This document shows positions 27,606 through 55,962 of a DNA stretch of 64,000 nt, in pieces. Position numbers and translations under genes: made by a program. The notes beneath the pieces are model-generated. The model did no database searches. It was given only the letters and a program-made list of their open reading frames with translations, and had not been told where the DNA came from. The DNA comes from Pedobacter nototheniae (lineage in GTDB: Bacteria; Bacteroidota; Bacteroidia; Sphingobacteriales; Sphingobacteriaceae). Location of the stretch: assembly GCF_004335085.1 (NCBI RefSeq), contig NZ_RQRS01000009.1, positions 1 to 64,000 on the forward strand, read 5' to 3'. Position 1 is the stretch's first letter, and every line of letters starts with the position of its first letter.

Positions 27606-29264
27606 ATGAGTGAAGAAAAGTCATTGAACTTTATAGAAGAGATTGTTGAGAACGACTTAAATAGTGGTAAGTATAAAACATTGGTTACGCGTTTCCCGCC
27701 TGAGCCTAACGGTTATTTACACATCGGCCACGCTAAAGCTATATGCTTAAACTTTGGTTTAACACAAAAATATGGCGGTTATACTAACTTACGCTTTGAT
27801 GATACCAACCCGGTAACTGAAAAAACTGAATACGTTAACAGTCAGCAGGAAGATATAAAATGGCTTGGATTTAGCTGGAAAAACGAATTATATGCATCAA
27901 ATTATTTTGATGAATTATATGCTTTTGCCGTAAAACTGATTGAGAAAGGCTTAGCTTATGTTGACGAGAGCAGTGCTGATGAAATTGCAGCTTTAAAAGG
28001 TACACCAACCGAGCCAGGAAAAGATAGTCCTTACCGCAGCCGCAGTATTGAAGAAAACCTTGACCTTTTTACCAGAATGAAAAATGGTGAATTTGGTGAC
28101 GGTGCATATATTTTAAGGGCTAAAATTGATATGGAAAGCCCGAACATGCTAATGCGTGATCCTATTATTTATCGTATTAAACATGCAGAACATCACCGTA
28201 CAGGCAATAAATGGTGCATTTATCCAATGTATGATTTTGCGCACGGGCAGAGCGATAGTATAGAAAATATTACGCATTCTATTTGTACTTTGGAATATGT
28301 TTCGCACCGCGAATTGTATGATTGGTTTATAGAGAAACTGGAGATTTTCCCGTCAAAACAGTATGAGTTTGCCCGTTTAAACCTTACTTCAACAGTAATG
28401 AGTAAGCGCAAGCTGCTTCAACTGGTAAACGAAAACCTAGTAAATGGATGGGATGATCCACGCATGCCTACAATTTCTGGTTTACGCAGACGTGGTTTTA
28501 CACCAAAGAGTATTCGCGAATTTTGCGAGCGTATTGGTATTGCGAAACGTGAAAACTTAATTGAATTAAGCTTACTTGAATTTTGTATTCGCGAGGATTT
28601 AAATAAAACGGCTAGCCGTGTAATGGCAGTTTTAGATCCTATTAAACTGGTTATTACAAACTATCCGGAAGGACAAAGTGAAGATTTAATTGGCGAAAAC
28701 AACCCGGAAGCAGAAGATGGTGGTGGCACCCGCGTAATTCCTTTCAGCAATGAATTATGGATTGAGCGTGAGGATTTCATGGAAGTTCCTGCAAAAAAAT
28801 GGTTCCGTTTGGCTCCAGGTGCAATGGTACGTTTAAAGTTTGCTTATATTGTTAAGTGCGAAGATTTTATAAAAGACGAGAATGGCAATGTAACCGAAAT
28901 TCGTTGTACTTATTTCCCTGATTCGAAAAGTGGAAATGATAATAGTGGTTTAAATGTTAAAGGTACTATCCATTGGGTGAGTGCTGCACATGCAAAAACT
29001 GCTGAAATCCGTTTATATGATCGCTTGTTTACTTCTGAAACGCCTGACGCTGAAGAAGGAGATTTTAAAGATTATTTAAATCCTGAAAGTTTAACGGTTT
29101 TACCGAACGCTTATATAGAGCCGGCCCTGGCTGATGCAGATTTAGATGGCCGTTATCAGTTTATCCGTAAAGGTTATTTCTGCTTAGATAAAGAATCTAC
29201 TGCTGATAAATTGGTATTTAACAGAACGGTTACCCTGAAAGATACTTTTAAGAAACCTAATTAA
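27606..29264 (+). CDS. glnS: Glutamine-tRNA ligase
   Basis: The 552-residue class I synthetase has the signature [14 protein letters not shown] with HIGH at residues 39-42 and the second signature VMSKRK near residue 265. The C-terminal beta-barrel anticodon domain is of normal length. It charges tRNA-Gln directly, so this organism does not need to make Gln-tRNA by transamidation. Repeat copy 2 begins 4 bases after its stop codon, and the repeat hairpin at 29286-29352 appears to be its terminator. Confidence 0.97.
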
Positions 29265-29268
29265 GGGC

Positions 29269-29942
29269 ATTTCTTTAAGGCATATGCCACGGAAACACTG
29301 AAACCACGGAAAATATTTCGTGTTAATTTCGTGATTCCGTGGCTATTTTTTTGCTCTTTTTTGGAGCTACTTTTCGAAAAACCCTTGTGCTAAGGTTGCA
29401 GATATATAATTATGGGTGTTTAACCATTAATTTGAGGTTGTATAGGTATAATTTGATTTATTAAACTAATCCGAAGCTGTTAAATACATATCACTTCTTT
29501 TAATTTACTACTCGGTTGAGTTAATTTACTACTCGGTTGGGGTTCTGGATATATAATTTGGGGTTACACAAGCATAACGCTAAGGTTCGGAACGTATAAT
29601 TCGGGGTCCATAACCCCAATTTTGGGGTTATAAGCGTATATTTTTGGGTTATACAACCCTATCGTTGGTATCCTGAACGTATAATTATCAGTTAGGAACC
29701 CCGCGACATATATCTGGAGGGTATAATTAAGGGTTATACAACGCCAATGTTGGGGTTATATAACCTTAATCTGCGTTTAACCTAAGTTTTTAAACCTGGG
29801 TGTAGCGGCATCCCCGATTTTTCTATCGGGATATAGCGGAAAACAGGAATCATGTTTCAAAAGAACCACAGGCTTTGCTTTACAAATAATTAATGTGTTT
29901 GATTTGGAAATGAACGGACAGCATTAACTGGCAATTGCAGTC
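29269..29942 (+). repeat. Non-coding dispersed repeat, copy 2
   Basis: This is a 674-base non-coding copy that begins 4 bases after the glnS stop. In glnS sense it contains a 58-nt hairpin (29286-29343), a T-run, about seven units around TATAATT and GGGGTTATA, and a small distal hairpin near 29810-29835 (ATCCCCGAT, loop, ATCGGGAT). A further near-palindrome at 29610-29631 has 10-base arms ATAACCCCAA and TTGGGGTTAT. Compared with the reverse complement of copy 3, I count about 15 substitutions and no net length change, which implies recent duplication or gene conversion. Confidence 0.9.
29286..29352 (+). terminator. Repeat-borne terminator of glnS
   Basis: The 58-nt segment runs from GCCACGGAAA to TTCCGTGGC and is followed by seven T (29346-29352). 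It is 21 bases past the glnS stop and belongs to the repeat element. Confidence 0.65.
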
Positions 29943-30125
29943 TCTATGCTACCGCAAGCGTCTTGCTTGTAGCCGCATGCTAATTAAATTATAACCTTTT
30001 ACCAGTTCAGGCACCTGTAATTATGGCTCATTGCTTTAAATCTATTATGGCATGTTACTACTACCTTTGTTTGTTGCCTACCTGATTGCCACATGCGAAA
30101 CGCTTGCGGTAGCGTTGGATTGTTT
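29943..30125. other. Intergenic region after repeat copy 2
   Basis: This stretch lies between repeat copy 2 and the amidase gene. It contains the 14-base inverted pair GCTACCGCAAGCGT (29948-29961) and ACGCTTGCGGTAGC (30100-30113), 138 bases apart. The left arm also sits in a local hairpin ending near 29973. No gene is seen in it. Confidence 0.6.
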
Positions 30126-30962
30126 TTAATACTTTGTATAAACATTATACAATACTAAAATATCAACTGGCGTAAGTTTTGGCGTTAAATCACTCTGTAT
30201 AAAGTGGCGTTTAAAGGCAGTAATAGCTGCACCCAAATCGCTAGTATCATAACCAATAAGTTTAAGGGCATTTGTGGTATCAAAATCAGCTGGTGGATTT
30301 TTCAATACATCATCATACCAATATCCAAAACCTTTATCGGCAAGTTTTTTCCAAGGAAAATTATTAGGATCTGGTTTACGTTTTGGCGCAATATCTGCAT
30401 GGCCAATAAAGTTAGCTGTAGGAATATTGTATTTCTTTTTTAGTGTAGCTAAAAGTTTAAGAAGGCTGTTAATTTGTGCATCCGTCCAAATATCGGTTGT
30501 ACCATTATTATCCATTTCTATCCCTATAGATGAAGAATTTAAATCGGTATCTTTTCCCCATTTGCTAATGCCTGCATGGTTTGCTCTTAAATAATCATTA
30601 ACCATTTGTACCACTTTACCATCACGCCCTACCACATAATGGGCACTGGTACCGGTTCTGGCAATGGTAAAGGTTTTTATGGTTTGCGCTAAACTATCTT
30701 GAGCAGTATGATGAATAATTACAAAATTGGGCTTACGGATTCCAAAATTAACGGAACCTATCCATTGCTGGTTGCTCGCCATTAACGAATCGTACAACTG
30801 CCCAACGGGTGGAGTTGCAGTAATAATTTTAGCAAAATCTTTAGTTTTTTCTTTATAAACCTTTTCTGATGCTGCATATTTACTTGTGGTACAGGCCGAA
30901 AGTAATGCAATGCTACCGATTGAAAAATAAGACAGAAGTTTTGATGAAATTATAGTTGCCAT
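30126..30962 (-). CDS. N-acetylmuramoyl-L-alanine amidase lipoprotein
   Basis: The 278-residue protein has a lipoprotein signal with lipobox LSAC (Cys24). The amidase_2 domain shows the zinc-ligand motifs IHHTAQD, SAHYVVGRDG and GHADIAPKRKPDP, plus EMDNNG. It cleaves the stem peptide from peptidoglycan and may act in cell-wall recycling or separation. The distal end of repeat copy 2 faces its 3' end (tail-to-tail). It is divergent from the downstream M49-like peptidase gene. Confidence 0.92.
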   Translation of the reverse strand: MATIISSKLLSYFSIGSIALLSACTTSKYAASEKVYKEKTKDFAKIITATPPVGQLYDSLMASNQQWIGSVNFGIRKPNFVIIHHTAQDSLAQTIKTFTIARTGTSAHYVVGRDGKVVQMVNDYLRANHAGISKWGKDTDLNSSSIGIEMDNNGTTDIWTDAQINSLLKLLATLKKKYNIPTANFIGHADIAPKRKPDPNNFPWKKLADKGFGYWYDDVLKNPPADFDTTNALKLIGYDTSDLGAAITAFKRHFIQSDLTPKLTPVDILVLYNVYTKY

Positions 30963-54278: not shown

Positions 54279-54995
54279 AGTAAATGCCACCGATTCTTTA
54301 TCGGGGCAGCAACGGGAGCAGGACTGCAATTGCTAAGTAATGCTGTCCGTTCATTTCCAAATCAAACACATTAATTATTTGTAAAGCAAGGCCTGTGGTT
54401 CTTTTGAAACATGATTCCTGTTTTCCGCTATATCCCGATAGAAAAATCGGGGATGCCGCTACACCCAGGTTTAAAAACTTAGGTTAAACGCAGATTAAGG
54501 TTATATAACCCCAAAATTGGCGTTGTATAACCCTTAATTATACCCTCCAGATATATGTCGCGGGGTTCCTAACTGATAATTATACGTTCAGGAGACCAAC
54601 GATACGGTTGTATAACCCAAAAATATACGCTTACAACCCCAAAATTGGGGTTATATACCCCGAATTATACGTTCCGAACCTTAGCGTTATGCTTGTGTAA
54701 CCCCAAATTATATATCCAGAACCCCAACCGAGTAGTAAATTAACTCAACCGAGTAGTAAATTAAAAGAAGTGATATGTATTTAACAGCTTCGGATTAGTT
54801 TAATAAATCAAATTATACCTATACAACCTCAAATTAATGGTTAAACACCCATAATTATATATCTGCAACCTTAGCACAAGGGTTCTTCGAAAAGTAGCTT
54901 CAAAAAAGAGCAAAAAAATAGCCACGGAATCACGAAATTAACACGAAATATTTTCCGTGGTTTCAGTGTTTCCGAGGCATATAGCTTAAAGAAAT
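54279..54995 (-). repeat. Non-coding dispersed repeat, copy 3
   Basis: This non-coding copy matches copy 2 over 54322-54995 (674 bases in each) and matches copy 1 further out to about 54279. Strand is given so that the hairpin end comes first, reading away from oxyR (minus strand), whose stop at 55030 is 34 bases away. The layout is the same as in the other copies: a 58-nt hairpin (54921-54978), iterated units, a palindrome AACCCCAAAATTGGGGTT, and a distal hairpin near 54441-54462 (TCCCGAT, loop, ATCGGGGA). Confidence 0.9.
54912..54978 (-). terminator. Repeat-borne terminator of oxyR
   Basis: On the minus strand the 58-nt hairpin (54978 to 54921, one arm mismatch GCCTCGGAAA) is followed by seven T (54918-54912). 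It lies 52 bases past the oxyR stop. Confidence 0.6.
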
Positions 54996-55029: not shown

Positions 55030-55962
55030 CTAAATCCCCACAATATCTTTCTTTTTACGCTGTTTCATTGCCTTTGGAATTATCTCTAAAATTTCATCCT
55101 TCAAGGCATTTAGCATGCGCTTTTTAATGAAGTTTTTATGTGTAACCAAGCTAATCTCTCTTACTGGCTCAGGAGATTTGAAATGACGGATTTTGCTGGT
55201 TTGTTTAGTGCTTAATTCTGCAATGGCCAATTCGGGCAGCAATGTTGCGCCACCATTTAAATCCACCATTCTAACAAGTGTTTCTACACTTCCAGTATTA
55301 TATTCTAAACCTTGTAATCTATTATTTTTTGTTGATCGGCAAATATTTAAAACCTGATTACGCATACAATGTCCTTCATTTAAAAGCCAAATATTCTCAT
55401 CATTTAAATCCTCGGCATCAACTGCCTTCTTTTTATATAGCTTACTATTTTTACTGATATAGCTTACAAAGTTTTCGTAATAAAGAGGTAGTTCAGTAAT
55501 GTTAGCATCAGTTAAAGGCGTAGCTAAAATACCGCAATCTAATACGCCAGTTTTAAGGTGATGAATAATATCTTCGGTCGTATATTCCCAAATCAACAAT
55601 TTTAAATCTGGGTATTTCTCTAACATTGCCGAAATTACTTCGGGTAATAAATATGGCGCTACCGTTGGAATTACTCCAATTCTTAATTCACCTAAAACAT
55701 CTTGCTGTTGACTGCTAATTAATTCTTTAATCTTCCCGCTCTCTTGTAAAATTATCCTGGCTTGGGCTATAACCTGAGCTCCAATTTCTGTTGGTGTAAC
55801 GGGCTGCTTACTCCTATCGAATATTTTAACACTAATTAATTCTTCCAGCTTTTGAACTTGCATACTTAGCGTTGGCTGGGTTACAAAACATTTATCAGCA
55901 GCAGTTACAAAACTTCTGTAAGTATCTACTGCAACAATATATTCAAGCTGAACTAAAGTCAT
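55030..55962 (-). CDS. oxyR: Hydrogen peroxide-responsive LysR-type regulator
   Basis: The 310-residue regulator has an N-terminal winged helix-turn-helix (about 1-60, FVTAADKCFVTQPTLSMQVQKLEE) and a LysR substrate domain. Cys199 and Cys208 in NEGHCMRNQVLNIC match the positions and spacing of the peroxide-sensing disulfide of E. coli OxyR. It should activate antioxidant genes on oxidation. No catalase or Dps gene is adjacent; sodA lies about 1.7 kb away. Repeat copy 3 begins past its stop. Confidence 0.93.
   Translation of the reverse strand: MTLVQLEYIVAVDTYRSFVTAADKCFVTQPTLSMQVQKLEELISVKIFDRSKQPVTPTEIGAQVIAQARIILQESGKIKELISSQQQDVLGELRIGVIPTVAPYLLPEVISAMLEKYPDLKLLIWEYTTEDIIHHLKTGVLDCGILATPLTDANITELPLYYENFVSYISKNSKLYKKKAVDAEDLNDENIWLLNEGHCMRNQVLNICRSTKNNRLQGLEYNTGSVETLVRMVDLNGGATLLPELAIAELSTKQTSKIRHFKSPEPVREISLVTHKNFIKKRMLNALKDEILEIIPKAMKQRKKKDIVGI

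Follow-up and report, generated by a model that had tools for sequence, protein, structure and literature searches.

Iteron arrays of plasmid origins and partition sites are built from units of about 10 to 22 bp held in helical register, and a REPIN is a pair of REP hairpins in inverted orientation, which a RAYT (Y1) transposase mobilises. Judged by analogy, the system that appears closest to the locus described here is the family of BrickBuilt/PgRS minisatellite MITEs of Porphyromonas gingivalis, a member of the Bacteroidota in which minisatellites lie in dispersed blocks (BrickBuilt, MITE464/PgRS) and for which the part of the published account considered here gives unit lengths of 23 nt and 41 nt, with 22 nt noted too (PMC4596501). 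As far as that part goes, BrickBuilt/PgRS resembles the block in our window (the whole stretch of 64,000 nucleotides that was analysed) in its degenerate tandem units, its dispersal between genes, its flanking leader and tail, and a unit number that varies between loci (PMC4596501). The two differ in that the BrickBuilt leader and tail bear IS5-type terminal inverted repeats whereas the window copies have ragged ends, in that BrickBuilt units share one common sequence whereas the 21-bp period found here recurs in unrelated sequences, and in unit length, 23 nt against 21.25 bp, which is a comparison by length alone (PMC4596501, same part). The BrickBuilt-type order of leader, units, and tail in several dispersed copies is found in three blocks of the window, with a fourth, partial copy on contig C26. 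Prokaryotic satellites share with the window core the character of short non-coding tandem repeats that are patchy between species; the survey describing them demands regular repeats and stresses multiples of three in coding DNA, and the portion considered here contains no 21-bp rule (PMC6749651). The likeness to REP/REPIN elements, as dispersed intergenic repeats with hairpins in the portions of the reports considered (PMC3733652, PMC3116915), covers the right flank of the block (29801-29943), and the array core is not part of this repeat. Unlike iterons, the arrays had no replication or partition gene that we noticed among the gene neighbours looked at. A literature search that took in few of the subscription journals revealed no class of unrelated 21-bp arrays that we recognised.

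The window covers the opening 64 kb of a contig of 184 kb in a genome of 5.26 Mb and 106 contigs, which from its gene content we take to be that of a Pedobacter-like member of the Sphingobacteriaceae, and the array core sits in the window between glnS and an N-acetylmuramoyl-L-alanine amidase gene. We are highly confident that this core is a degenerate, 21-bp phased minisatellite within a lineage-specific duplicated block, and we read it as a helically phased minisatellite that was spread by segmental copying, dispersed together with the glnS terminator and a REPIN-like repeat. The features are as follows.

27606-29264, + strand: glnS, named from a reading of its translation
29281-29943, + strand: copy A of the block, beside glnS
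29281 to 29373, + strand: terminator-type hairpin after glnS, with a short lead-in
29374 to 29800: array core, 13 scored degenerate units of 21 or 22 bp, no open frame
29500 to 29539: two identical 19-mers TTAATTTACTACTCGGTTG, 21 bp apart, within the core
29610 to 29631: palindrome ATAACCCCAATTTTGGGGTTAT (ATAACCCC..GGGGTTAT) inside the core
29801 to 29943: dispersed REPIN-like repeat at the right end of the core
30126-30962, - strand: N-acetylmuramoyl-L-alanine amidase gene (Pfam Amidase_2)
54320 to 54985, - strand: copy B of the block, 98% identical over a 531-bp query, outer ends approximate
180 to 850, - strand: copy C of the block, near the contig start, 93% identical over the 531-bp query, outer ends approximate

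Autocorrelation of positions 29375-29800 peaks at lags 42, 21, and 85 (match 0.44, 0.42, and 0.41), with z values of 6.8, 6.7, and 5.5 against 500 dinucleotide shuffles, and the lesser peaks at lags 106-107, 127-128, 148, 170, and 190-191 lie near multiples of 21.25. The fitted unit is 21.25 bp long, and the 42-43 and 85 spacings are multiples of it. The mean match at lags 21, 42, and 85 is 0.42, against a maximum of 0.33 elsewhere in the window, so that none of the 1207 other 426-bp stretches compared (the three block copies being excluded) reaches the core. The self-similarity beyond that expected of AT-rich sequence, on which the original prediction depended, is thus present. A unit model places 13 degenerate units between 29391 and 29772, spaced 21 or 22 bp apart except for two gaps of 105 and 42, where we take the units to be too worn to score; wear also explains why Tandem Repeats Finder reports no more than the two-unit stretch 29500-29539 in the glnS-side copy. 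The units alternate between GGTTCTGAACGTATAATTT-like and GGGGTTATACAACCCTAAT-like versions, with a higher-order periodicity of 42 and 85 bp, and TATAATT occurs six times in 426 bp (about 14 per kb, compared to 0.5 per kb and strand in the window). A promoter reading of these boxes was set aside, as most of the sister arrays looked at are without them. The boxes that had been picked out by eye and the palindrome at 29610-29631 are indeed in the sequence, and the repeats are real, but the supposed seven or so units become 13 under the unit model, the separate box types amount to a single 21-bp unit in two versions that alternate, and the spacing is 21-22 bp rather than the 40-60 bases proposed, which spanned two units. 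The core hence consists of head-to-tail units of 10-60 bp repeated beyond chance, as a minisatellite does.

A block of about 660 bp, with hairpin, array, and REPIN-like repeat in the same order, occurs three times in the window, each time between genes. The arms of the hairpin, GCCACGGAAACAC at 29286-29298 and GTGATTCCGTGGC at 29331-29343, are followed by T runs, and the hairpin part is present in the genome in three near-full copies, all joined to the array, plus one 29-bp match. Copy B lies between an upstream + strand ORF and a LysR-type gene (55030-55962). Its left edge contains about 17 bp of the sequence found between glnS and the hairpin, while the left edge of copy C is the hairpin itself, such that copy B starts about 17 bp further left. 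The right ends differ too and, on comparison by eye and BLAST, the ragged block ends show no clear terminal inverted repeats. To judge by these ends, the block does not resemble a fixed-end transposon. The partial copy of the core on contig C26 (81% identical in its main piece, and without the hairpin and the right repeat) contains tandem units of 84/85 bp (4 x 21) and differs from copy A by a net 63 bp (3 x 21). The number of units therefore varies between copies by whole units, in agreement with the proposal that the array was amplified internally. The C26 copy is also without 21 columns at the position of the 19-mer pair at 29500-29539, a pair that is probably a whole-unit duplication, and some of the pairs of the palindrome at 29610-29631 are broken in it. 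When 145 genus genomes (own included) were searched by BLAST, the core was found in its own genome only, and it had no match in 72,556 plasmid records, nor in phages.

The right flank has a different distribution. The 531-bp query has 58 matches in the own genome, of which 52 fall in the 29801-29943 part only, and in this set the core and the REPIN-like repeat are joined solely in the three window blocks. In a search of 99 genomes, own included, the flank was matched in 25 others, 24 of which are among the 59 congeners searched while one belongs to another family. The repeat has CCGAT..ATCGG hairpins, with own-genome examples at L005-L007, L009-L015, and L017-L030, and the sole Y1_Tnp transposase match in the genome is short with a stop inside. 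To the right of the block, there is an inverted pair (29948-29973 and 30088-30113) that is 85% complementary (GCTACCGCAAGCG...). At this site (29948-30113), the other two block copies run on into the outer REPIN part, and similar sequence is located on contig C18 near 312 kb (L027).

What the core might encode or specify as RNA can be evaluated from these copies. A transcribed series of RNA hairpins, serving in 3' end protection, in attenuation, or as a repeat RNA, was one of the two readings in the original prediction, and we now consider it very improbable. The window core folds better than its shuffles on each strand (z -3.4), as does the minus strand of the C26 copy (z -2.65), and a terminator hairpin precedes the array in the block. 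Against this, the plus strand of the C26 copy folds no better than its shuffles (z -1.45), and the four-copy alignment has no net covariation (term +0.75, with double changes in 3 of 89 pairs), although with four rows, three of them close, it makes for a weak test. Folding of both strands combined with compensatory changes had been suggested as the way to decide; the folding came out in favour of the RNA reading for the window core and the covariation did not. In addition, there is no Rfam match at the gathering threshold, and an RNA role would leave the 21-bp period without a reason. Barely credible, and already contradicted, is a decayed gene for a protein of seven-residue (heptad) repeats. 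Such a gene would agree with 21 bp being seven codons and with the long open stretches in sister arrays (C16, which is stop-free for 166-174 aa, and G139), but each of the six frames of the window block contains stops (7 to 20 per frame), the 22-bp units in the window, in G139, and in others shift, and hence break, the reading frame, and we noticed no intact relative of such a gene.

The origin of the block was approached through the glnS site in related species. A search of 60 genus genomes gave a GlnS in every one, and the 30 best-matching loci, that of the own genome among them, were extracted. In none of the 29 congeners so examined does a 21-bp array follow glnS (maximum score 0.092, compared to 0.196 in the own genome), which makes the array dispensable at this site. 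The congener with the most similar GlnS (97%), G050, has the same terminator hairpin after glnS, followed by about 49 bp and then the amidase gene. These 49 bp resemble two array units when compared with the C26 copy (score 30, p 0.0015); with the window copy the score is 25 (p 0.019), three further targets gave no significant result, and the whole 146-bp spacer of G050 against the window copy has a p of 0.07. The 49 bp could represent a two-unit relic or seed of the array, which these similarity scores can only suggest. Copy B begins in sequence that G050 also carries downstream of glnS. Because G050 has the terminator at glnS, and because copy B includes sequence from the left of the terminator, glnS is the likely source: the block probably formed next to the terminator there, with later copies made at two other sites within 55 kb. 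On the simplest reading, the array would have grown beside the native glnS terminator, and terminator, array, and REPIN would then have been copied to the two other sites with ragged ends.

The 21-bp period is not confined to this block. A profile of the core was used to find further arrays and, since the profile itself favours a 21-bp period, sampling without the profile was added. With the profile, more arrays are found in the same genome (C22, C9, and C106:147k) and in congeners (G183, G049, and G139), where three of the 19 loci from the congener search (L059-L077) score at least 0.11 for period 21. Among other families of the class, 38 of 395 genomes match at E up to 0.05. Eight of the 29 loci inspected from that search have their best period at 21 with a score of at least 0.12 (L135, one of the eight, seems to be coding), and at two the period is 22. 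The profile-free sample amounts to 2.27 Mb from 19 genomes, with 400 kb each from the own genome, G052, and G420, 200 kb each from G389 and G276, and the remainder in 34 stretches from 14 further genomes picked for having few contigs. Because G420, G389, and G276 were chosen for a strong profile match, and six of the 14 further genomes have a weak one (G087, G209, G217, G222, G281, and G503), the array densities are biased, but the periods of the other arrays are not biased thereby. Arrays counted as non-coding unless an ORF of at least 150 aa spanned half of their length. The period count skipped matches containing a run of N and left out G389:15.6k and G276:179.7k, which had been found by the similarity search.

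In this sample, 19 of 30 non-coding arrays have a period of 20-22 bp (16 at 21, two at 20, and one at 22), no other period is represented by more than two arrays, and p is 6e-12 against a uniform null over 13-40 bp. For coding arrays the figure is three of 16, all at 21 (non-coding versus coding, p 0.005). It should be noted that G276 gives 12 of the 19 arrays: without it, 7/17 non-coding arrays are at 20-22 bp, which still departs from the uniform null (p 0.001), whereas the contrast with coding arrays is not significant (7/17 versus 3/16, p 0.26). The C18:312k array was known (L027) before C18 was sampled, so counts are given with and without it; dropping it leaves 18/29, and dropping G276 as well leaves 6/16 (p 0.005). 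The 19 arrays lie in five of the 19 genomes, from five families (own, G420, G389, G276, and G091), and none of period 20-22 was seen in the other 14 genomes sampled, among them G052 with its 400 kb. The unit sequences are unrelated between arrays, for example CGCAATTGACTTGGTAACGGT, AAACTGTCAACTGCAAGTTCT, GTTCGGAACGAGGTCATCGGG, and TTGGTGTTAAAGTTTGAAACT, and this is so even among arrays of one genome. The arrays are not concentrated between convergent genes (6/29 compared to a background of 44/322, p 0.28), and a rule restricting them to such positions was dropped on these orientation counts.

Searches with patterns of the unit extended further afield. In Galbibacter mesophilus, a weaker 21-bp array (score 0.117) lies between two converging ORFs and has 28 of 29 letters in common with window copy C, about 19 of which were fixed by the window-unit pattern that found it. 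An Actinomycetota pattern match was dismissed as chance, as there is no 21-bp array there. One unit pattern matched no viral contig, and a second matched 17, with a period 20-22 array, away from the match, at two of the 17 loci. Outside the Bacteroidia, 50 kb of E. coli K-12 was scanned and gave one period-21 array, inside the coding region of gfcA; we do not claim that 21-bp arrays are specific to the phylum.

Several individual arrays have features of their own. The first 200 kb of contig C4 of G276 (G276:C4:1-200000, L189-L198) contains 13 non-coding arrays of 20-21 bp, one of them a profile match, mostly with a unit sequence of their own, and would be a good model for studying how arrays are born. 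A near-perfect 42-bp (2 x 21) array in G049 (L083:3000-3272, contig C11) runs off the contig end, which shows that arrays of this kind can interrupt assemblies and that counts of them may be too low. The array at L089:2416-2860 (G139, contig C18) is GC-richer, with 22 units, two of them of 22 bp, whose differences look like mostly A/G and T/C changes. In two species a protein of 158-159 aa adjoins a 21-bp array (L078:3126-3605, - strand, and L081:2351-2827, + strand). The L078 copy has no Pfam match, relatives are found in 11 of 99 genus genomes (own included), some with several, and an apparent remnant of the 3' end of the gene is present in the C9 array copy.

B-DNA has 10.5 bp per turn, so that no whole number of base pairs below 21 makes up complete turns. 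Any 21-bp tandem repeat, being two full turns, puts each bend and groove pattern on one face of the helix. Among 333 spacings in 33 arrays, which were picked for a 21-bp period, 256 are at 21, 30 at 22, 19 at 20 (11 of these from two arrays of 41-bp dimers), and one each at 19 and 23. Predicted curvature, calculated from wedge values, lies above that of 95% of letter shuffles in 26 of the 33 arrays. When the units were instead compared with 21-bp repeats of units made by shuffling their own letters, p for curvature fell below 0.05 in only two of the 33. In this model it is the period, not the letters, that makes the predicted bend, and as unit content adds little, selection for curvature is not supported. 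Dyad centres every 10.5 bp were dropped as evidence, as any 21-bp direct repeat yields them.

Insertions and deletions give a second view of the register. Over the 426 bp of the core, 31 substitutions but no indel separate copies A and C, compared to nine substitutions and eight gaps in their REPIN flank (Fisher p 6e-5), although the flank is a poor yardstick for indels because 15 REPIN copies elsewhere are also gap-rich (228 substitutions and 132 gaps). The C22 and C9 arrays differ by 11 substitutions and no gap. Of 11 aligned array pairs only four, each made up of close copies, have no gaps. Gaps of lengths other than multiples of 21 occur in C106:147k-C14, between the two G183 arrays, in two G049-G139 pairs, and between the two C18 arrays, and copies A and C show small gaps against the C26 copy besides the 63 bp; some of these out-of-register gaps in diverged pairs may be alignment noise.

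Two readings of the period have to be weighed here. In the first, selection would have acted on the phase because of what it does to DNA shape or wrapping, which we hold to be quite possible, if somewhat short of probable. In the second, the arrays are neutral minisatellites that do nothing and decay, and it is the step making the duplications that prefers 21 bp, for example by slippage or looping past a protein or by end-joining at sites on the same side of the helix; this we regard as very nearly as likely as the first. A neutral origin is consistent with an array that is lineage-specific and dispensable at glnS, with unit sequences that differ by locus and contribute little to curvature, with the out-of-register gaps in diverged pairs, with the possible two-unit relic or seed in G050, and with the lack of a clear orientation preference. 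It accounts less well for the scarcity of 19s and 23s even in worn arrays, bearing in mind that these were picked for their period, and for the fact that there is no indel among copies A, B, and C nor between C22 and C9, something that a bias confined to the birth of the arrays would not guarantee.

The other reading in the original prediction, a protein-binding array, bears on the symmetry of the units. In 16 of the 33 arrays, and in 6 of the 18 located by means other than likeness to the window, the units exceed column shuffles in self-complementarity (combined p 7e-6). Dimeric proteins may lie behind the excess, as may duplication assisted by hairpins, or the two together. An array of palindromic 21-bp sites bound by a putative sequence-specific dimeric protein would explain this excess, would fit the helical phasing through binding on the same face, and would gain from the letters shared by copy C and the Galbibacter array, subject to the pattern by which the latter was found. 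We nevertheless consider it improbable, as unrelated units occur within one genome, where one protein with one site cannot serve all of them, about half of the arrays are without excess self-complementarity, and no gene for an array-specific protein was seen beside the window blocks.

The essence of the mechanism that we put forward under selection for phase is that units would multiply through slippage or unequal exchange, and that arrays whose consecutive units keep to the same helix face would be retained, since a 21-bp repeat adds up small bends and presents identical faces. The arrays would then act, independently of their sequence, as bent or wrapped DNA between genes, for example as a seat for an abundant architectural protein of low specificity such as those of the HU type. 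The occurrence of arrays of quite different sequence between genes in several related bacteria suggests that spacing may matter more than sequence in them. More broadly, we offer as a speculative and, on balance, doubtful proposal that a subset of the Bacteroidia has a general process that builds or keeps arbitrary intergenic DNA in a two-turn (21-bp) register, which would yield an element that is free of sequence and defined by phase. Such an element would perhaps be a site of nucleoprotein wrapping or of supercoil buffering, of which the window core would be one example. Minisatellites are usually classed by sequence. If many unrelated arrays in a group of bacteria share one period, and this is the smallest whole length that keeps step with the helix, then helical phase would itself be a trait under control and, if that is true, the purpose and the unit length of degenerate intergenic repeats would become testable with designed arrays.
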